A stretch of DNA of 64,000 nt. Source: Clostridia bacterium. GTDB taxonomy: Bacteria; Bacillota; Clostridia; Oscillospirales; CAG-272. Made by a program: the position numbers and the translations under genes. The stretch is taken from NCBI GenBank assembly GCA_017453245.1, contig JAFTKM010000022.1:20901-84900 (forward strand). The letters are read 5' to 3'. Below, one piece after another: positions 6,069 to 58,992 of the stretch; positions within the stretch are counted from its first letter, which is position 1, and the number at the start of each line of letters is the position of its first letter. The notes beneath the pieces were generated by a model. It did not search any database. It saw nothing but the letters and a program-made list of their open reading frames with translations, and was not told the DNA's origin.

Positions 6069-6085
6069 TAACTCAACCAAACAGA

Positions 6086-6170
6086 ATATGTCAGGGGTGC
6101 CCACAAGGCTGAGATAGCGAATGCTGAACCCTTTAACCTGATACGGATAATGCCGGCGTAGGGAGATAAA
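6086..6170 (+). ncRNA. TPP riboswitch (THI element)
   Basis: The conserved THI-box blocks appear in order: CAGGGGTGCCC (6092-6102), GGCTGAGA (6107-6114), ACCCTTTAACCTGAT (6128-6142), GGATAATGCCGGCGTAGGGA (6145-6164). These form the two parallel arms that bind the pyrimidine and pyrophosphate ends of TPP. It is followed by a small AT-rich hairpin (6173-6192), then a terminator, then thiT, so it should lower thiT expression by transcription termination when TPP is plentiful. Confidence 0.95.
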
Positions 6171-6193
6171 CTATAGATATCCTTATATCTATC

Positions 6194-6246: not shown

Positions 6247-6843
6247 ATGAGTACGCAAAAAAGGCTCAGTACAAATCTGACCACACTCACCGAATGCGCG
6301 ATAATGCTCGCGCTCTCATTCGCGCTTAGCTGCGCGAAGCTTTTCGAAATGCCTATGGGCGGCTCTGTAACCGTCGCAAGTATGCTCCCCGTGATGCTTA
6401 TCAGCATCAAATACGGCGTCGGCACAGGCCTTGCGACCTGCTTTGTCTACTCGCTCACCCAGCTCATGCAAGCGGTAGCGAGCGCAAACGTCTTCCCCTA
6501 CTGCGAGACTCCCGCAACTCTCGTCATCTGCATTCTCTTCGACTACGTTGTTCCCTTCACCGTCCTAGGTCTTGCAGGTCTCTTCCACAAGATGAAGCTA
6601 ACAAAGAATACCGAAATGAACATCTACATCGGTATTGTCTCTGTTGTTGTCCTTCGTTTCCTCTGCCACTTTATCACCGGAGTTGCAATCTGGGGACAGT
6701 GGGCACCCGAGGGAATGGGCAAATACCTCTATTCCTTCCTCTACAACGGCGGTTTCCTCTCTCTTGACTTTATCATTTGCATTGTATGCGCCGTGCTTAT
6801 GTTCAGAAAGGCAGAGCTAAGAAAGCTCGTAAACATAGACTAA
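6247..6843 (+). CDS. thiT: energy-coupled thiamine transporter ThiT (ECF S-component)
   Basis: A 198-residue integral membrane protein with about six hydrophobic segments, typical of ECF-transporter substrate-binding subunits. The N-terminal ALSFALSCAKLFEMPMGGSVTVASM matches the ThiT signature region; the later aromatic positions (WGQWAPEGMG) fall in the thiamine-binding part. The shared energizing module EcfAAT is not in this window. The location directly behind a TPP riboswitch and attenuator supports thiamine as substrate. AAGGAGG lies seven bases before the ATG. Confidence 0.95.
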   Translation: MSTQKRLSTNLTTLTECAIMLALSFALSCAKLFEMPMGGSVTVASMLPVMLISIKYGVGTGLATCFVYSLTQLMQAVASANVFPYCETPATLVICILFDYVVPFTVLGLAGLFHKMKLTKNTEMNIYIGIVSVVVLRFLCHFITGVAIWGQWAPEGMGKYLYSFLYNGGFLSLDFIICIVCAVLMFRKAELRKLVNID

Positions 6844-6948: not shown

Positions 6949-7216
6949 TAAACAATCATTAAAGCATTTAATGCTGTCACCAAACAATCATCGAGGCATT
7001 TAATGCAGCTAAATTAAGTGCAGAAATTTCTGAGCGCGACCCAAATCTAACAAAAAACACCTATAATCCTTGTGCTAATAAATTTTTAGCAGAAATCGTC
7101 GAATACGCGCTCACACTATGTACTTTTAATTACTTGAGCATAAATTTCGAACAGAAATCGTCGAATACGACTCGATGACGTATACACATACGTCGAAGTG
7201 GTCGTATTCGGCGATA
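6949..7216. repeat. direct and inverted repeats between thiT and the exonuclease gene
   Basis: No gene is seen here. AAACAATCAT plus a GCATTTAATGC block occurs twice (6950-6974 and 6982-7006). An exact 18-bp repeat, CAGAAATCGTCGAATACG, occurs at 7090-7107 and 7152-7169. The second copy forms one arm of a large near-perfect inverted repeat: 7157-7171 pairs with 7201-7215, and inside it a second stem joins the TCG...ACGTAT arm to ATACGTCGA. Confidence 0.6.
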
Positions 7217-7256
7217 AAAAAGAAACAGGTACTTCCCGCAGTACCTGTTTCTTTTT
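7217..7256. terminator. bidirectional terminator, mainly for the exonuclease gene
   Basis: A 13-bp perfect stem, AGAAACAGGTACT (7221-7233) with AGTACCTGTTTCT (7240-7252), has an A-run on one side and a T-run on the other. It ends the minus-strand gene at 7271. Confidence 0.85.
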
Positions 7257-7270
7257 GTTTATGTCGAAAT

Positions 7271-8230
7271 TTATCGCACAAGACGTGGGCCGCGAGGCTT
7301 GCGTTGGCGCATCTTCCTCTTCACCGCCGTGCGTTCAATTCCGCGTCTGAACTCCTCGAGTGACGCCTCGGTTGCGAATGCGATAGTACGCTTCGCTCTC
7401 CAGGTCTCGTTAAAGTTCCTTCTGAGTCTGAGGACAAGGAGCATATCTCCGTCCTTCTTGCAGTTAAAGTGGAAGGTATATTTCTGTCCCTTGGAATGAA
7501 GGACTCTGTCCTCTGTCTGCATCACACACTTGCAGATCGGACACTTAGGCGACTTTACTATCTCGTCATCGAGCATCTCTCCGATGGTTACGTATCCGTC
7601 ATCTCCCGCATCGGCATCACCAATGACGGTCGACTCAAGGAATTCGCCTCTAAAATCGTTGTAGGTTTTGATTCCCTCCTCGACATTAAGCTTCTGAGCC
7701 ACGAGGGCGGTAAAGTAAGCGTCGTTGAGCGCATCGTGCGCGGGAAGGTTCATTGGAATCTCAAAGTGCTCCATAGCAAACTCGAGTGAGCGCTGCTTGG
7801 ACTCATCAGAGGTCTGTCTTGCAAAGATCTTCTGCAGATCGTAGGTATGATCAAGCCAACCATAGTCGATATCGTTTACGTTGAAGTTCTCCTTCAGCAT
7901 CGGGATATCGTCTGGGCCCCAGGTGAGAAAGGCAAAGTCCTCTCCGCACCATTTCCTGAAGCTCTCTGCCGCAACCGTCAGCGGTGTGCCGACGTCCATC
8001 TGCTCCTGAGTAATACCCGTGAGCTCGGAGACGTGCTTGTGCAGCTTCTTGAAATATTTCGGCTTAACTATGATCTGATAGGAGCCGCAAATGCGCAGGC
8101 TCTTATCCAGCTTGACCGCGCCAATCTGTATAACCTCACCGCGAAGGCGGGAGGACAGCTGTCTCTGAACGGCAAGCGCCTTCTGTGCGTAGGCCTGATT
8201 CCATTCAAGGTCAAGTGTTATATAAAACAT
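7271..8230 (-). CDS. 3'-5' exonuclease, KapD/ERI-1-like DEDDh family
   Basis: A 319-residue protein. The N-terminal ~190 residues are a DnaQ-like exonuclease: LDLEWN holds the first catalytic acidic pair, WGPDD the next Asp, and PAHDALNDA the final His and Asp. The C-terminal third has a CPICKC motif and a later HFNCKKDGD Cys, suggesting a small zinc ribbon, and ends in a very basic tail (RKMRQRKPRGPRLVR), both consistent with nucleic-acid binding. The domain order resembles KapD-like sporulation inhibitor/RNA exonucleases; DNA versus RNA as substrate cannot be decided from sequence. It is transcribed alone. Confidence 0.82.
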   Translation of the reverse strand: MFYITLDLEWNQAYAQKALAVQRQLSSRLRGEVIQIGAVKLDKSLRICGSYQIIVKPKYFKKLHKHVSELTGITQEQMDVGTPLTVAAESFRKWCGEDFAFLTWGPDDIPMLKENFNVNDIDYGWLDHTYDLQKIFARQTSDESKQRSLEFAMEHFEIPMNLPAHDALNDAYFTALVAQKLNVEEGIKTYNDFRGEFLESTVIGDADAGDDGYVTIGEMLDDEIVKSPKCPICKCVMQTEDRVLHSKGQKYTFHFNCKKDGDMLLVLRLRRNFNETWRAKRTIAFATEASLEEFRRGIERTAVKRKMRQRKPRGPRLVR

Positions 8231-16265: not shown

Positions 16266-16377
16266 TCTGATTGAGGGAATTTTGAGGGGAAAGAGTCGTT
16301 CTTCGACCCGAAGCAATAGAAACCTATTGCGAGCCTTGGTCGAAAACGGCACTTTACACCAAAATTCACCAATCAGA
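16266..16377. ncRNA. structured element A, unknown class, at the 3' end of rbsK
   Basis: A nested inverted repeat of 112 nt. The outer stem TCTGATTG (16266-16273) pairs with CAATCAGA (16370-16377); after a 3/2 internal loop GAATTTTG (16277-16284) pairs with CAAAATTC (16360-16367). Further in, AAAG-GTCGTT and TTCGACC pair with GGTCGAA and AACGGC-CTTT. The core is CCGAAG, then the hairpin CAATAG-AAAC-CTATTG (16314-16329), then CGAGCC. Element B at 55256-55361 has the same plan and core. The outer stem includes the rbsK stop codon. The active strand is not known; both elements follow minus-strand genes. Confidence 0.6.
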
Positions 16378-17314
16378 TAAGATCTTCTTTGAGGATGAGG
16401 GCTTGAACCTCCTCCGCCGTCGGTATCGACGTCGACGCGCCCTTACGGGTAACGGTGATCGCGCCTGCGGCAATGCCAAACTTGACCGCGTTGCGGATGT
16501 TGCCGCCGTTGTTAAGATACTCAACGGTAAGAGCGGCGGTAAACGCATCACCTGCGGCGGTGGTGTCGATTGCCTTACCTATTCTGATGGCGGGGATAAC
16601 GAAGAAGTGCTTGCCATCATAAACGAATGCGCCTCTGTCGCCCTGCTTGAGAACTATGTACTTTGCCTTCACTCTCTTGTAAAGTGCGAGAGCGGCGCGC
16701 AGAGCGGAATCAGTGCCCTGCGGAAGAATGCCCGTGTAGGTCTCGGTCTCGGTCTCGTTGGGAGAGAATACCTCAACGGGAGGAAGGCTCTCGAGCGCGT
16801 GGTCCTTGCTTGCGGGAGCCGCGTCAACGAAGATCGGAATACCCTTGGAGGCTGCTATTCTCGCAGCGGTGAGCGCTACCGAGAAGGGGATCTCAAAGCC
16901 GATGTAAAGAGCGTCGGGCTCACACTCAAACGCCTCGGTAATATTCTCGGGAGTGAGGTTACCGTTAGCGCCGGGATAAACGACGATACGGTTGTTGCCG
17001 TCGCTCTCCTTCATAACCACGGCAAGGCCCGTGGGATTCTCACGGTCTACCTTAAGGTAGGAGGTATTGATGCCTATCTCCTTGTAGTACTGATAGAGCT
17101 TCTGACCGTGGAGGTCGGCGCCGACCTTAGCCGAGAAGTAGCAATCCGCGCCGAGCTTGTTAAGGGCAATTGCCGCATTCGCGCCCTTTCCTCCGGGGAT
17201 ATAGGCAACACCGCCGTCGTCGATAAGAGTCTCGCCAACCTCGGGTACCTTATACATATTCATCGACAGATCCATATTTGCGCTGCCGACGACGAGAATT
17301 TTCTTGTTTGCCAT
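16373..17314 (-). CDS. rbsK: ribokinase, PfkB family
   Basis: A 313-residue sugar kinase. The N-terminal GSANMDLSM and GGKGANAA motifs bind the sugar, and the C-terminal DTTAAGDAFTAAL holds the catalytic Asp and anion hole. Length and motifs fit ribokinase, which makes ribose 5-phosphate. No ribose transporter is adjacent. AGGAAGACAGAAAA precedes the ATG. Its stop codon lies inside the outer stem of structured element A. Confidence 0.88.
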   Translation of the reverse strand: MANKKILVVGSANMDLSMNMYKVPEVGETLIDDGGVAYIPGGKGANAAIALNKLGADCYFSAKVGADLHGQKLYQYYKEIGINTSYLKVDRENPTGLAVVMKESDGNNRIVVYPGANGNLTPENITEAFECEPDALYIGFEIPFSVALTAARIAASKGIPIFVDAAPASKDHALESLPPVEVFSPNETETETYTGILPQGTDSALRAALALYKRVKAKYIVLKQGDRGAFVYDGKHFFVIPAIRIGKAIDTTAAGDAFTAALTVEYLNNGGNIRNAVKFGIAAGAITVTRKGASTSIPTAEEVQALILKEDLI

Positions 17315-21872: not shown

Positions 21873-21994
21873 CTTATTACTTGTACCTTGGTGGTAGCGC
21901 TGAATAGTTTTTGAGATAGTTGCCACGTACTTCTACCCGAAGCTGTATATCCAATACAGCGAGTTTGGTAGAATACGGGGGAAATATCCGAAAA

Positions 21995-24940
21995 TTACCT
22001 CTTGACTTCTTCCATTATGAAGGATTCAAGCACATCCCCCTCACGGATATCATTAAACTTCTCGATACCAACACCGCACTCATAGCCCTCGTTGACTTCC
22101 TTCACGTCGTCCTTGAAGCGGCGGAGAGAGGAGATCTTATCCTCGAAGATAACTACGCCGTCACGAACGATACGGATAGAGGACTGACGGGTGATCTTAC
22201 CGTCCTGGATATAGCATCCCGCGATGATACCGACGCCGGGAACCTTGATGGTCTGTCTGACCTCGGCGTGACCCTGAAGGACTTCCTTATACTCGGGAGC
22301 GAGCATACCCTTCATAGCGGCCTCGACCTCGTCGATGATCTCGTAGATGATACGGTGAGTTCTGATGTCGACCTTGTTTCTCTCTGCGGAGTCAAGAGCG
22401 TTCTTATCAGGACGCACGCTGAAGCCGACGATGATAGCGCCGGAGGCAGCCGCGAGCATAACGTCGCTCTCGGTGATACCGCCTACCGCGGTGTGAATTA
22501 CGTTAACCTTAACCTCGTTATTGGAGAGCTTAAGGAGTGATGCCTTTACTGCCTCGGCAGAGCCCGCAACGTCAGCCTTAACGATGATGTTAAGAGTCTG
22601 AGTACCCTCGGAGATCATGGAGAAGAGGTCGTCAAGGTTAACTCTCGCGTTAGCGTTGAGTATCTCCTGTCTCTGCTTCTCACGTCTCTGCTCTGCAAGG
22701 CTTCTCGCCATTCTCTCGTCCTCAACGGCATTGAGCTCATCGCCCGCCTGAGGAACGTCGTCAAGACCGATGATCTCAACGGGAACGGAGGGACCTGCAA
22801 CCTTTACGGTCTTGCCCTTATCGTCGATCATAGCTCTTACTCTACCGGTTGCGGTACCTACGATCACGTAGTCACCCTGATGGAGAGTACCGTTCTGAAC
22901 GAGGACGGTAGCTACGGATCCGCGGCCCTTATCGAGCTTGGATTCTATTACGATACCCTTAGCTCGCTTCTGAGGATTAGCGCGGAGCTCCTTCATCTCT
23001 GCGACGAGAAGCACGCTCTCAAGAAGGTCCTCGATACCCATACCCGTGTGAGCGGAAACAGGCACGGTGATAACGTCACCGCCCCATGCCTCGGGAACGA
23101 GCTCATAGGTTGTGAGCTGGTTGAGAATGTTATCGGGATTAGCCGTGGGCTTATCCATCTTGTTGATTGCTACTACAATATCAATGCCTGCCGCCTTAGC
23201 GTGGTTGATAGCCTCAACGGTCTGGGGCATTACGCCGTCATCCGCCGCAACAACGAGGATCGCGATATCGGTGGACTTAGCGCCTCTCATACGCATAGCG
23301 GTGAACGCCTCGTGACCGGGGGTATCAAGGAAGGTGATGTCCTTGCCCTGAGCCTTAACACGGTATGCACCGATTGCCTGAGTAATACCGCCCGCCTCGC
23401 CGCGGGTAACGTTGGTGTGTCTGATTGCGTCAAGGATAGAGGTCTTACCGTGGTCAACGTGACCCATAACGCAAACTACGGGTGCGCGCTCTACGAGATC
23501 CTCATCATTATCCTCTGCCTCGGTAAAGAGCTTCTCCTCGATGGTAACAACGACCTCGCGGGTAACCTTTGCGCCGAACTCGTCAGCGATGATCTCCGCG
23601 GTACCGAAGTCGATAACGTCGTTGAGACCCTTCATCTCGCCCATCATCATGAGCTTCTTGATAACCTCTGCGGAGGTCTTCTTGAGTCTTACTGCAAGCT
23701 CGGAAACGGTGATCTCGTCGGGAACGGTGATCTCAAGCTGCTTCTGTCTTGCTCTCTCCTGCTCCATACGCTTGATCTTTTCCTGAGCCGCTCTTTCCTT
23801 ATCCTTAGCGGTCTTCTGATTCTGTCCCTTGTTGTCCTGCTTCTTAAGCTTGGTCTTGGAGCTCTTCTGATCGGTGCCGTTGAGGATTGCGTAGTACTGA
23901 TCGTTGTAGCGGTCGTCATACTTGGAGAGATCAACGTGAGAGGTTCTCGTATCGATGATCCTCTTGCCCTTATTCTCCTCGGTGGTGTATCCGTCGAGGT
24001 TTACGCCGCCCTTGACGTTACTTCTGTCAACGGTGGGGGTAATGGTCTTGAACTGCTGCTTCTGAGCCGCCTTCTTCTCTTCCTTCTTAGGCTGCTGAGG
24101 CTTCTGCTGAGCCTGCTGGGCTTCAAGCTTCTGCTTTCTCTCAAGCTGAGCCTGCTGAGCGGGACGAAGTCCGGAGTCCTTTCTGGGCTCGGTAACTACG
24201 GGAGCCGCCTTAGGTGCGGGAGCGGTCTGGGGCTTCTGCTGAGGCTTAACAAAGCCCTCGCCGGGCTTTCTCTGTCCGTTCGCCTCGCGGTTCATATTCT
24301 CGCGGCGCTTTGCAAAGGGATCGTCGGAGGGACGCGCGCCGTACTTGTTGTTACCCTGATAGCCCTGGCCATCAGGTCTTCTGTTCTTATCAAACTGAGG
24401 TCTTGCGCCGTCGGGACGCTGAGTGCTTCTGTCGCCCTGAGGTCTCTGACCGTTTCTGTCAAACTGAGGTCTCTGTCCCTCGGGACGCTTCTGTGCCTCG
24501 GGTCTCTGCTCGGGGCGTCTGTCCTCCTTAGGAGCGGGTGCTGCCTTAGGCTCTGCCTTGGGTGCGGGTGCGGCCTTCTGCTCAGCCTTAGGTGCGGGCG
24601 CAGTCTTGGGCTCTGCCTTGATCTCGGGCTTTGCCTCAGCCTTAGGAGCGGGAGCTGCCTTAGGAGCAGCCTTCTGCTCAGCCTTAGGTGCGGGAGCTGC
24701 TTTAGGCTCCTCCTTTGCCTTACCTGCTATTCTGATCGTGATCTTACCCGAGCGATATCCCTCAAGATCAGATATCTGATTCTTGGAGGTAATATGCTGC
24801 ATAAATACAGCAAACTCCTCGTCGGAGACGGTGCCGCCCGTGGTCTTCTCAATATTTACAGATTTAAATTCCTCGATAACGTCCTTAGACTTCATTGCGA
24901 AGTCCTTCGACAGCTCGGAAATCTTAATTCCTTTTGCCAT
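21995..24940 (-). CDS. infB: translation initiation factor IF-2
   Basis: A GTPase of about 981 residues that places initiator tRNA on the 30S subunit. The first ~400 residues are a long low-complexity linker rich in Ala/Pro/Lys and then in Gln/Arg/Pro/Asp/Gly (repeats such as APAPKAE and QRPxxxRPQFD). The GTPase domain has [17 protein letters not shown] and NKMDKP, followed by the usual beta-barrel and C-terminal tRNA-binding domains. The ATG at 24940 (MAKGIKISE) is the homologous start; an in-frame ATG four codons upstream also exists. It is the last gene of the operon: rbfA and truB, often next, are absent. Confidence 0.96.
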
Positions 24941-25037
24941 ATTGTTCACCATTCACCGTTTGGTGAATTCCCTTTCGTTGTAATTTGACGGGAATTTTCG
25001 GGGTTAAAGGTGATTATGCAAATCTAGTTTTACATTT

Positions 25038-55181: not shown

Positions 55182-55213
55182 AAAAAAACTCCCACGGGTT
55201 GCCCCGTGGGAGT
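55182..55213 (-). terminator. terminator of the PFOR gene
   Basis: ACTCCCACGGG (55188-55198) pairs with CCCGTGGGAGT (55203-55213); a seven-base T-run follows on the minus strand. It lies downstream of element B. Confidence 0.88.
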
Positions 55214-55255
55214 CGATATCTAACTATTTACAAGTCAGTAATTACGCTAAATACC

Positions 55256-55361
55256 ATAGCGCTATAATTTTGATGAAGTTTGTTCAAGCGGAACCCGAAG
55301 TCGTAGAAACCTACGACGAGCCAGGTGACGGTTGGGCAAAATTCGCAAAATTATTAGCTAT
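55256..55361. ncRNA. structured element B, unknown class, at the 3' end of the PFOR gene
   Basis: A 106-nt nested inverted repeat with the plan of element A. ATAGC (55256-55260) pairs with GCTAT (55357-55361); after a 3/2 internal loop ATAATTTTG (55264-55272) pairs with CAAAATTAT (55346-55354). A long imperfect stem leads to CCGAAG, the hairpin TCGTAG-AAAC-CTACGA, and CGAGCC. Three base pairs of the hairpin differ from element A on both strands while pairing is kept. The PFOR stop codon lies within it, and an ordinary terminator follows downstream. Confidence 0.6.
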
Positions 55362-58300
55362 AGAAATCAACGAACTTAACGAGGCGCTCATACTTTGCCT
55401 TTGCAGTTGCCTCTGCCTTCTCGAAGAGCTCCTTAGCTCTCTCGGGGAACTGCTGAGCAAGTCTGGTGTATCTTGCCTCGCTGTTGATGAATGCCTGGTA
55501 GTCGCCGGTGGGTGCCTTGGAGTCGAGAGTGAACTTCTTCTCTGCAGCGGGGTTGAATCTGAACATATGCCAGTAGCCTGCCTCAACAGCCTTTCTCATC
55601 TCGTCCTGGCAGTTAGCCATACCGCCCTTGATGGAGTGCATCTCACAAGGAGCGTAGCCGATGATGATGGAAGGTCCGGGATAAGCCTCAGCCTCTGCCA
55701 TTGCCTTGAGAGTCTGGTTCATATCAGCGCCCATAGCAACCTGTGCAACGTAAACGTAGCCGTAGGACATAGCGATCTCTGCAAGGTTCTTCTTGCCGAT
55801 TGCCTTACCTGCTGCTGCGAACTGAGCAACCTGACCGATCTGAGAAGCCTTGGAAGCCTGTCCGCCGGTGTTGGAGTAAACCTCGGTATCGAATACCATA
55901 ATGTTTACGTCCTCGCCCGAAGCAAGCACGTGGTCAAGACCGCCGAAGCCGATATCGTATGCCCAACCGTCACCACCGAAGATCCAAACTGCCTTCTTGG
56001 AGAGGTAGGACTTCTCTGCAAGGATCTTGTCCTTGAGAGGATTCTTGCAATCGCAGGACTCAAGCATAGCAACGAGAGCCTTGGTTGCGGGCTCGTTAGC
56101 CTTACCGTCGTTTACGGTGTTAAGGTAGTTATCGATGATAGCTGCCTTTTCCTCGTCACAAACGTTCTGACGAAGCTCCTTAACGTAACCGATGAGCTTC
56201 TCACGAACTGCCTTCTGACCAACGTAGATACCGAGACCGTGCTCAGCGTTATCCTCGAAGAGGGAGTTAGCCCAAGCGGGACCGCGGCCGGTAGCGTTAT
56301 TTACGGTGTAAGGAGTAGCAGGCGCGGAGCCGCCCCAGATGGACGAACAACCGGTAGCGTTGGAGATATACATTCTCTCACCGAAGAGCTGGGTGATAAG
56401 ACGAGCGTAAGAGGTCTCTGCACAGCCTGCGCAGGAGCCGGAGTACTCAAGGAGGGGCTGCTTGAACTGGCTGCCCTTAACGGTGGTAGCAACAAGCTCA
56501 GACTTCTCTGCTACGTTAGCAACAGCGTAGTCGTAAGCTGCCTGCTGATCAAGCTGAGTAGCGATGGGCTTCATCTCGATAGCGGTACCGAGCTTCTCGT
56601 TCTTGTTAACGGGACAAGCCTTAACACAAAGAGTACATCCCATACAGTCAAGGGGAGATACGGACATGGTGAACTTGTAGTTAGTCTTAAGAACGGGCTT
56701 AGCGGCGAACTTGGTAACTGCGGGAGCAGCTGCTGCCTCTTCCTCGGTCATTGCGAAGGGACGGATACAAGCGTGAGGACATACGAACGCACAGTTGTTA
56801 CACTGGATACAGTGCTCGGGGTTCCACTGAGGAACGGTAACTGCAACGCCTCTCTTCTCGAAAGCGGCAGAGCCCTGGGGGAAGGTACCGTCCGCATACT
56901 TAGCGAAGGTGCCAACGGTGAGGGAATCACCCTTCATTGCGCCAACGGGAACAACTACGTCGTTTACGAAGTCGATGAGATCCTGTCTCTTGCCCTCTAC
57001 CTTAGCTGCGGGAGCGGTCTTGCCTGCGTCCTTCCAGGATGCGGGAACTGCTACCTCGTGGATAGCGTCCTTACCTGCGTCGATAGCTGCGTGGTTGAGG
57101 TCAACGATAGCCTGACCCTTCTTGAGGTAAGACTTGGTAGCCATATACTTCATATAGCCGTTTGCTTCCTCTGCGGGAAGGATGTTTGCAAGGGTGAAGA
57201 ACGCGGACTGAAGCACGGTGTTCTTAACCTTTGCGTTACCAAGGCTGATAGCAAGCTGGGTTGCGTTGATGGTATAGAACTTAACGTTGTTGTTTGCAAT
57301 ATAGGACTTAACGGATGCAGGAAGGTGAGCATCAAGCTCTGCATCGGTCCACTGGCAGTCAAGAAGGAAGGTACCGCCGGGCTTAACGTCGGAGATCATA
57401 TCATACTTGTTGAGATATGCCGAGTTGTGGCAAGCAACAAAGTCAGCCTTATTGATGTAGTAAGAGGACTTGATGGGGGAGTCACCGAATCTGAGGTGAG
57501 AAATGGTGATACCGCCGGTCTTCTTGGAGTCATACTGGAAGTATGCCTGGATATGCTTATCGGTGTGGTCACCGATGATCTTGATGGAGTTCTTGTTTGC
57601 ACCAACGGTACCGTCGCCGCCGAGACCCCAGAACTTGCACTGGATCATATCGGTAGGAGCGGTGTCGGGAGCGGGCTGCTCGTCAAGAGAGTGACCGGTA
57701 AGGTCGTCCACGATTCCGATGGTGAAGTGGTTCTTCTTCTCGCCTGCCATGTTAGCGTATACTGCGAAGATGGAAGCGGGAGTGGTGTCCTTAGAGCCAA
57801 GACCGTATCTACCGCCAAGAACCTTTACGCTTCTGCCAACCTCATTGAGAGCTGCGATAACGTCGAGGTAAAGGGGCTCGCCAAGAGAGCCGGGCTCCTT
57901 GGTTCTGTCAAGAACGGAGATAACCTTTGCGGTCTCGGGAATTGCTGCAGCGAGCTTCTCTGCAACGAAGGGTCTGTAAAGTCTGACCTTAACAAGACCA
58001 ACCTTCTCGCCCTTAGCAAGGAGGTAATCGATAACTTCCTCTGCAACGTCACATACAGAGCCCATAGCGATGATCACGCGATCTGCATCGGGAGCGCCGT
58101 AGTAGTTGAAGGGCTTGTAGTTAGTGCCGAGCTTCTCGTTAACCTTGTCCATGTACTCCTCAACGATTGCGGGAAGTGCATCGTAGTAGGGGTTGCAGGA
58201 CTCTCTGTGCTGGAAGAAGATGTCGCCGTTCTCAGCCGAGCCGCGAAGTACGGGGTGCTCGGGGTTGAGAGCTCTGTTACGGAATGCCTGAACTGCATCC

Positions 58301-58914
58301 CAGTCAACCATATCTGCAAGATCCTTGTAATCCCAAGCGGCAACCTTCTGAATCTCGTGAGAGGTTCTGAAGCCGTCGAAGAAGTTAAGGAAGGGAACTC
58401 TGGACTTAATGGTAGCAAGGTGTGCTACTGCGCCAAGGTCCATGATCTCCTGTGCGTTGGTCTCAGCGAGCATAGCAAAGCCGGTCTGACGGCAAGCGTA
58501 TACGTCGGAGTGGTCACCGAAGATGTTAAGAGCGTGGGAAGCTACGCATCTTGCGGAAACGTGAATAACGCAAGGAAGAAGCTCACCGGCGATCTTGTAC
58601 ATATTGGGGATCATAAGAAGAAGACCCTGAGATGCGGTGTAAGTAGTGGTAAGAGCGCCTGCTCCGAGAGAACCGTGAACAGCACCTGCTGCACCTGCCT
58701 CGGACTGCATTTCAACAACCTCAACGTTCTCGCCGAAGATGTTCTTAGCGGGCTCGCCGAAGATGTTCTTGTCAGAAGCGGACCAAGTGTCTGTTACTTC
58801 AGCCATAGGGCTGGAAGGGGTGATAGGATAGATAGCGGCAACCTCTGTGAACGCGTAAGAAACGTGAGCAGCAGCGGTGTTACCATCCATAGAAATTTTC
58901 TTTCTGACTATCAT
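55354..58914 (-). CDS. nifJ: pyruvate:ferredoxin (flavodoxin) oxidoreductase
   Basis: A 1186-residue single-chain PFOR that turns pyruvate and CoA into acetyl-CoA, CO2 and reduced ferredoxin. Domain order is complete: N-terminal TPP pyrimidine domain (YPITPSSPMAE), the gamma-like region, a ferredoxin domain with two clusters (CIQCNNCAFVCPHAC and CMGCTLCVKACPVN), and the TPP pyrophosphate domain with GSCAGC and ISNATGCSSIWGG. The ATG at 58914 is preferred because GGAGG lies eight bases upstream, inside a longer frame from 58929. Its TPP need links it to thiT and thiN in this window. Confidence 0.97.
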   Translation of the reverse strand: MIVRKKISMDGNTAAAHVSYAFTEVAAIYPITPSSPMAEVTDTWSASDKNIFGEPAKNIFGENVEVVEMQSEAGAAGAVHGSLGAGALTTTYTASQGLLLMIPNMYKIAGELLPCVIHVSARCVASHALNIFGDHSDVYACRQTGFAMLAETNAQEIMDLGAVAHLATIKSRVPFLNFFDGFRTSHEIQKVAAWDYKDLADMVDWDAVQAFRNRALNPEHPVLRGSAENGDIFFQHRESCNPYYDALPAIVEEYMDKVNEKLGTNYKPFNYYGAPDADRVIIAMGSVCDVAEEVIDYLLAKGEKVGLVKVRLYRPFVAEKLAAAIPETAKVISVLDRTKEPGSLGEPLYLDVIAALNEVGRSVKVLGGRYGLGSKDTTPASIFAVYANMAGEKKNHFTIGIVDDLTGHSLDEQPAPDTAPTDMIQCKFWGLGGDGTVGANKNSIKIIGDHTDKHIQAYFQYDSKKTGGITISHLRFGDSPIKSSYYINKADFVACHNSAYLNKYDMISDVKPGGTFLLDCQWTDAELDAHLPASVKSYIANNNVKFYTINATQLAISLGNAKVKNTVLQSAFFTLANILPAEEANGYMKYMATKSYLKKGQAIVDLNHAAIDAGKDAIHEVAVPASWKDAGKTAPAAKVEGKRQDLIDFVNDVVVPVGAMKGDSLTVGTFAKYADGTFPQGSAAFEKRGVAVTVPQWNPEHCIQCNNCAFVCPHACIRPFAMTEEEAAAAPAVTKFAAKPVLKTNYKFTMSVSPLDCMGCTLCVKACPVNKNEKLGTAIEMKPIATQLDQQAAYDYAVANVAEKSELVATTVKGSQFKQPLLEYSGSCAGCAETSYARLITQLFGERMYISNATGCSSIWGGSAPATPYTVNNATGRGPAWANSLFEDNAEHGLGIYVGQKAVREKLIGYVKELRQNVCDEEKAAIIDNYLNTVNDGKANEPATKALVAMLESCDCKNPLKDKILAEKSYLSKKAVWIFGGDGWAYDIGFGGLDHVLASGEDVNIMVFDTEVYSNTGGQASKASQIGQVAQFAAAGKAIGKKNLAEIAMSYGYVYVAQVAMGADMNQTLKAMAEAEAYPGPSIIIGYAPCEMHSIKGGMANCQDEMRKAVEAGYWHMFRFNPAAEKKFTLDSKAPTGDYQAFINSEARYTRLAQQFPERAKELFEKAEATAKAKYERLVKFVDFYS

Positions 58915-58992
58915 TGGTTTTTCCTCCATATAAAAAATTTAATAATACACATTTTACGGGTGCGAGAGCGCGCCCTCGTACCTCAATTTTAT

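Follow-up and report, generated by a model that had tools for sequence, protein, structure and literature searches.

An attC site is located 3' of the gene of its cassette. Such sites are palindromic, measure 57-141 bp, form part of the gene cassette and are recognised via extrahelical bases once their bottom strand has folded (PMC3053210). REP sequences are dispersed extragenic palindromes of 20-40 bp that carry a GTAG or CGTC tag, and recognition of single-stranded DNA has been reported for an E. coli RAYT transposase (PMC3733652). ERIC (127 bp) and RUP (107 bp) are short intergenic palindromes of the MITE group, to which YPAL and NEMIS also belong; ERIC is co-transcribed and affects the upstream mRNA according to its orientation, being destabilising in Yersinia (PMC2229807). 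Between genes of low-GC Firmicutes, stable stem-loops are concentrated in the first 50 bp past the stop codon, and these are 30-50 nt long and mostly terminator-like, large repeat families being no explanation for them (PMC1590033). Here, we describe a family of folded repeats of ~110 bases (about 90-112) that is absent from Rfam and is present in several groups of gut Clostridia.

The repeats share features with each of these systems. Like attC, they stand in one orientation behind a gene, seem to fold on the bottom strand, carry bulged bases and keep their structure while the sequence changes, but unlike attC they are found behind chromosomal housekeeping genes and conserve their centre rather than their ends. 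Membership among attC sites was rejected, as none of 90 copies has the RYYYAAC/GTTRRRY boxes at its two ends, whichever strand is read (0.1 on average in shuffles), and no integron integrase exceeded the cut-off in 60 genomes. Like REP sequences, they are numerous dispersed palindromes, and genomes with a Y1 transposase are somewhat richer in copies; they were rejected as REP sequences because they are ~110 bp long and because, among 90 copies, only 8 have GTAG and only 2 have CGTC close to an end. ERIC/IRU and the other bacterial MITEs are likewise short palindromes dispersed in many copies. AT-rich ATTTTG/CAAAAT arms are present in our element, and no clean target-site duplication was seen. 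The sections of PMC2229807 on these MITEs make no mention of a start at the stop codon, of template-strand polarity or of outer stems that differ from site to site, and the hosts listed there are not Clostridia. Unlike the 3' stem-loops of Firmicutes, the repeats form a covarying family and have no excess of T-runs, which follow the hairpin in 5 of 90 copies versus 15 of 90 at a control position, and the same counts led us to reject an intrinsic terminator. By analogy, the best fit would be a family that works like attC or REP, yet fails the sequence tests that define either.

Within the window, by which we mean the whole 64-kb stretch of DNA analysed, a sequence-only reading had described a structured element present twice. 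Both elements were confirmed at their positions and with the fold described, and in neither was any of 200 shuffles as good, the MFE z-scores being -7.1 and -7.8 on the + strand and -5.7 and -5.6 on the - strand. The number of copies proved too low, as covariance model R3 identified four in the window (Table 1), all belonging to a dispersed repeat family. Copy 1 lies 3' of a PfkB-type kinase gene whose TGA stop (16373-16375) falls inside the outer stem of the repeat, while copy 2 lies 3' of the PFOR gene, the final codons and TAA stop (55354-55356) of which sit in the 5' arm of the outer stem as read in the sense direction. In copy 4, ATAAATTTCGA at 7140-7150 can pair with TCGAAATTTAT at 7264-7274, the latter covering the TAA stop (7271-7273) of the host gene. 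The + strand of copies 1 and 2 is antisense to their host genes and is the better-folding strand, and DNA folding parameters returned the same strand order for all 4 of the 4 window copies. The core pattern GAAGNNNTAGAAACCTANNNCGAGCC occurs twice in the window versus 0.02 occurrences expected. In the vicinity of the copies, we also observed a strong terminator-like hairpin (ctcccacgggttgccccgtgggag) at ~55188-55214, 3' of copy 2 on the side away from PFOR, as well as a partial repeat of the segment AGCAGAAATCGTCGAATACG at 7080-7110 just outside copy 4, which is perhaps a decayed tandem copy.

Table 1. Repeat copies in the window with their conserved cores, host genes and a nested hairpin.
Feature	Positions	Strand	Evidence and remarks
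Copy 1	16266-16378	+ (best-folding strand)	R3 98.8 bits, E 3.4e-22
Copy 1 conserved core	16310-16335	+	GAAG - apical stem with AAAC loop (stem and loop 16313-16330) - CGAGCC; pattern match, alignments A4/A5
Copy 1 host: PfkB-family carbohydrate kinase	16373-17314	-	Pfam PF00294 E 4.6e-59
Copy 2	55254-55364	+	R3 92.3 bits, E 1.5e-20
Copy 2 conserved core	55297-55322	+	pattern match
Copy 2 host: pyruvate:ferredoxin oxidoreductase (PFOR)	55354-58929	-	Pfam PF01855 E 1.5e-75, PF01558 E 3.5e-33
Copy 3	21900-22007	+	R3 78.3 bits, E 5.8e-17; starts at TAA stop 21995-21997 of IF-2
Copy 3 host: translation initiation factor IF-2	21995-24952	-	Pfam PF11987
Copy 4	7131-7274	+	R3 match 7131-7241, 42.1 bits, E 1e-7; outer arms extended by eye
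Copy 4 host: RNase_T-domain gene	7271-8230	-	Pfam PF00929
Terminator-like hairpin nested between copy 4 arms	7223-7250		T-run on both strands; read by eye

The repeats extend well beyond the window. With up to three mismatches allowed, the core pattern was found at 12 places in the same genome versus 0 for a backward control, and model R1, built from eight copies, gave 28 rows at E<=0.01, representing 27 distinct places. Among 59 related genomes, 29 contained matches, comprising 29 of the 36 from the genus and 0 of the 23 from other families of the order, and with model R2 (47 copies) at least 50 of 60 genomes of the genus matched, own genome included, with up to 43 rows per genome. A scan of genome_contigs yielded 53 stretches, 49 of which are from ruminant-gut Clostridia MAGs (RGIG), three from Oscillospiraceae MAGs (SIG) and one from an uncultured bacterium. 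Across 291 genomes of the class, R2 produced weak matches in at least eight besides our own; inspection of nine such matches revealed that most have the core CTCGnnGTA..TACnnCTTCGGG, that four are located where a long open frame ends and that the antisense strand folds better in 9 of 9. With model R3, which combines 30 genus and 8 outgroup copies, seven of those eight genomes had rows at E<=0.1 (42, 33, 32, 31, 9, 7 and 4), some of them consisting of the core only, and there were no rows in the eighth (G221) or in four added genomes of the same order. In a separate sample of 41 class genomes, at least three besides our own had matches at E<=0.001, with 28, 3 and 1 rows. Ten genomes of other genera contain 1 to 42 rows, and the distribution is patchy across the class and copy-rich in some genera. 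All counts from scans of more than 40 genomes are lower bounds, as only part of the candidates was scored, and the element sets analysed below are the best of score-ordered match lists. In G013, several copies lie within some hundred bases of the ends of contigs C2, C6, C8, C9, C13, C15, C26 and C27, which would be expected if the repeats break assemblies; in that case, copy numbers would be underestimated.

A search of the whole window against Rfam 15 identified only a TPP riboswitch (6083-6181, upstream of the Thia_YuaJ thiamine transporter gene at 6247-6843) and two tRNAs, all located elsewhere, and relaxed Rfam scans of the two originally described loci gave matches that were all far below gathering scores. 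The claim of a selected structure outside the known RNA classes thus survives a covariance-model search of both Clostridia genomes, which supplied homologues, and Rfam, which supplied no family. Likewise, none of the papers that literature searches brought up, a list of human-microbiome RNA candidates (PMC8040213) among them, describes such a family in its title or the opening of its abstract.

In the shared fold, a variable outer stem is accompanied by an AT-rich stem that contains a bulged A and by a middle stem, and there are a conserved internal loop of the CGAA/GAGY type and an apical hairpin. Pairing in alignment A5 amounts to 90.3% of cells (shuffles, 63.2%), and both sides have changed in 317 cells (shuffles, 98.7); neither value was reached in any of 500 shuffles, though the cells in these counts are mutually dependent. 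Sliding the partner columns by 1-3 positions reduced pairing to 41-45%. The selected, covarying structure that had been proposed from two copies is therefore borne out in the family. Taken alone, the finding that 29 of 33 pairs show a two-sided change barely exceeds what shuffles give (25.9, with 9 of 500 reaching 29). The hairpin centre TAGAAACCTA, previously considered invariant, is indeed common to both of the copies cited for it, but it is not invariant in the family, where most apical pairs vary and it is the GAAG/CGAG flanks and TA/TA pairs that are nearly fixed. Both the unpaired CGAAG/CGAG loop and the bulged A are kept across families. The loop does not appear to fit a K-turn, and TATAAT, present inside some copies, was dismissed as a promoter because its position (judged by eye) is not conserved.

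An outer stem had also been described, and such a stem is present, but its sequence differs between sites, and in copies 1 and 2 it runs into the host stop codon. Despite the different sequence at each site, the two arms remain complementary. In 42 copies whose stem overlaps the stop, the flank duplexes averaged -5.59 kcal/mol versus -4.15 kcal/mol when mispaired, and in 46 copies whose stem follows the stop they averaged -9.95 versus -6.23 kcal/mol, with 0 of 300 shuffles as good in either class. In some copies of the stop-overlapping class, among them copy 2 behind PFOR, the coding sequence itself supplies the 5' arm with its end, and others of this class have no outer stem.

The position of the repeats relative to genes is similarly constrained. 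For 160 placed copies, with genes called by a codon-score gene caller made for this analysis, the upstream gene was on the same strand in 144, on the opposite strand in 7 and out of reach in 9; duplicates were dropped from this set, and some of the opposite cases arise because a few reverse-strand matches of listed places remain in it. A total of 88 of the 160 start within -14 to +7 nt of the upstream stop codon, and 52 are more than 60 nt away from it, 32 of these behind another copy and 20 alone. The host stop codons (n=92) comprise 66 TAA, 23 TGA and 3 TAG, which indicates that the target is not a single triplet. In the outgroup, where plain open frames served as genes, the end of a long open frame was found at the matching position in 15 of 29 distinct places (31 rows). 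The host genes are ordinary chromosomal genes, encoding a PfkB kinase, PFOR, IF-2 and an RNase_T-domain protein in the window and PGK and PFL elsewhere. Among eight rows inspected by eye in genome G091, four (L342, L346, L349 and L350) come after a terminator-like hairpin with a T-run and two after a hairpin without one, with known stops 49-263 nt away.

A start at the stop codon is as expected of an mRNA 3' element, which is the main rival explanation for the family. The sense transcript would then fold right after the stop and stabilise, process or limit the upstream message, a role that has also been hypothesised for REP sequences. In addition to the 88 copies starting at the stop, such an element would account for the copies found between co-oriented genes (PGK/TIM; PFL/radical-SAM protein) and for copy 2 lying between the PFOR stop and a terminator-like hairpin; the sense strands of copies 1 and 2 are also far above shuffles, the host genes are common to the species (13 of 19, see below) and the commonest apical loop in the sense direction (29 of 118) is GUAA, a GNRA-type loop. 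However, some of the G091 copies are beyond terminator-like hairpins, and the terminator-like hairpin between the arms of copy 4 suggests that the sense RNA might stop before the 3' arm. Together with the strand evidence that follows, this leads us to consider an mRNA 3' element an unlikely reading, albeit one to be taken seriously.

Of 136 copies, only 17 are more stable when folded as the sense strand, the means being -35.1 kcal/mol for sense and -40.8 kcal/mol for the other strand. Energy also fails to separate the strands of terminators, as sense was more stable in only 58 of 124 control terminators, so the energy comparison is weak and a count of mismatches is better evidence. Since a consensus fold can favour its strand of origin, we employed Watson-Crick-only folding and counted single in-stem mismatches, a mismatch-polarity test that provides an approach to identifying the strand under selection in a palindromic repeat. 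Read on the sense strand, 110 genus copies have 18 G.U, 71 A.C and 181 other mismatches, and per copy there is an excess of A.C in 49, an excess of G.U in 13 and a tie in 48. The corresponding values are 0, 12 and 41 for 26 outgroup copies and 29, 11 and 8 for the 124 control terminators, whose 29:11 ratio is partly built in, since they had been selected on a sense-strand fold in which G.U pairs were permitted. Because R1, to which A2 and A3 had been fitted, is a sense model, any bias in the genus test would be towards sense; antisense models served to find the outgroup copies, and the bias there may be towards antisense. Evidence in the other direction came from the 19 pairs taken from the sense alignment, in which G.U and A.C are equal at 43 each. 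Overall, selection seems to act on the fold of the host gene's template strand, either as single-stranded DNA or as antisense RNA, which runs counter to an element acting in the sense message. From both the energies and the mismatch polarity, we infer that the bottom strand probably folds here as it does in attC.

A template-strand fold would look identical if an antisense RNA were the functional molecule. In that case, the template strand would be transcribed from downstream to yield a small RNA that has the conserved fold and terminates (3') right next to the stop or terminator of the host gene. The mismatch polarity favours this as well, and T-runs are present on both strands at several of the nested or adjoining terminator-like hairpins (those of copy 4, L342, L349 and L350, by eye), but that of L346 has a T-run in the sense direction only, just 8 of 90 copies have a T-run after the antisense end, and no conserved promoter was apparent by eye in the flanks, which differ per copy. 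Accordingly, an antisense RNA strikes us as improbable.

Comparison between genomes revealed considerable turnover. Among score-selected loci, 13 of 19 host clusters of our own genome also have a copy in G006 or G018. Orthologous copies share a mean identity of 0.725, compared to 0.689 between non-orthologous copies and 0.708 between copies of one genome (72 pairs); some orthologous pairs reach 0.91-0.97, and others are no closer than pairs drawn at random. Directly behind the stop of PFOR, G006 carries an extra copy in front of one resembling that of G000, and a single comparison of this insertion with G000 by eye showed no clean target-site duplication. Inheritance, replacement, and either re-insertion or gene conversion all seem to occur. 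We also considered whether host-gene 3' ends are carried along with the element and rejected this, as the C-terminal PFOR fragments in G011, G012 and G014 look by eye like local duplications. Beside these duplicated pieces, a second palindromic repeat was observed behind PFOR (L263 in G014, L264 in G011 and L265 in G012), with ACAGTCCACCGGACTGT at its centre in places and arms rich in CGGCTCGGTCACGCTCGGGG.

Exchange and replacement of copies at the same gene, tandem copies, near-palindromes on both strands and the equal G.U and A.C counts in the helices of the sense alignment would all be compatible with a neutral palindrome, i.e. a decayed MITE of no present function whose arms are kept matching by hairpin-templated copying and gene conversion. 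Such a palindrome would leave the precision at stop codons unexplained, however, and the conservation of the unpaired CGAAG/CGAG loop and bulged A across families and the one-sided mismatch polarity also oppose it, so we hold it to be very improbable. The stand-alone structured RNA implied by the sequence-only reading was not upheld either: given the template polarity, the copies located beyond terminators and the unrelated copies at orthologous genes, the family seems to have more in common with repeats at the level of DNA than with riboswitches or ribozymes.

If the repeats are mobile, an enzyme acting on them might be encoded in the same genomes. The integron integrase model TIGR02249 was over its cut-off in 0 of 60 genomes, several of which, our own included, are ~64% complete, and 56 of the 60 as well as all 14 control genomes match it as generic recombinases. 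Y1_Tnp exceeded its cut-off in 15 of 60 genomes, and genomes with Y1 have a mean of 20.6 copies versus 11.5 without (p 0.025 by Mann-Whitney test, with no correction for kinship or multiple testing; copy number was compared with three enzyme families only). The association is weak, and Y1 may be a mobiliser of the repeats, although 9 of the 15 genomes with at least 25 rows have no Y1 match over the cut-off, including G000, G006 and G018 (each ~64% complete). RVT_1 was present in 9 of 60 genomes, with mean copies of 7.3 with it and 14.9 without, and it was found in none of G000, G005, G006, G018 and G022; with no positive association, a reverse transcriptase was rejected as the partner. By eye, the 25 largest clusters of 322 neighbouring proteins included no transposase-like protein. 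For our own genome, such negative results are weakened by its completeness of 64%. A phage or plasmid vehicle was also rejected: viral contigs had 0 matches to the genus pattern and 0 to the outgroup pattern, a looser pattern matched a single viral stretch that had no R3 match at E<=1, and copy 2 had no blastn match among plasmids.

Weighing this evidence, we favour the reading that the family consists of dispersed, probably mobile or recently mobile, folded DNA repeats whose template strand folds and is acted on in trans, and we assign it a probability of roughly 0.45. The dispersal of the copies, their orientation and position, the covariation, the strand polarity, the turnover, the copies located after terminators and the association with Y1 tentatively support a mobile hairpin. 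Counting against it at present are the lack of a convincing enzyme or a clean insertion junction, the equality of G.U and A.C in the sense structure and the fact that some orthologous copies, with identities up to 0.97, are plainly inherited. Copies are located behind genes, on the 3' side, in most cases with the same orientation and commonly with their start at the stop codon or overlapping it. Mechanistically, the template (bottom) strand of the host gene would fold while single-stranded, and in this form it could be recognised in trans by a recombinase or transposase, as attC is by integron integrases; the enzyme would insert or exchange copies at the 3' ends of genes. Of this picture, the family, its fold, covariation, orientation, place at stop codons and mismatch polarity are observations, while single-stranded DNA as the molecule that folds, mobility, the enzyme and the cause of the placement at stop codons are inferences. 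A more specific proposal, which we regard as doubtful, is an attC-like single-stranded DNA hairpin recombination system of Clostridia with its own fold and a putative recombinase, its sites being placed precisely behind stops or terminators and marking the 3' ends of genes across unrelated families.

It is unusual for a structure to be kept across families, to occur in tens of copies per genome, to be directed at the final codon of genes and, apparently, to fold on the strand opposite to the message. If the repeats are mobile single-stranded DNA hairpins, they would point to an unrecognised recombination system in gut Firmicutes, and if they are instead 3' RNA elements, they would constitute a device on the mRNAs of central metabolism (PFOR, PGK, PFL and IF-2).
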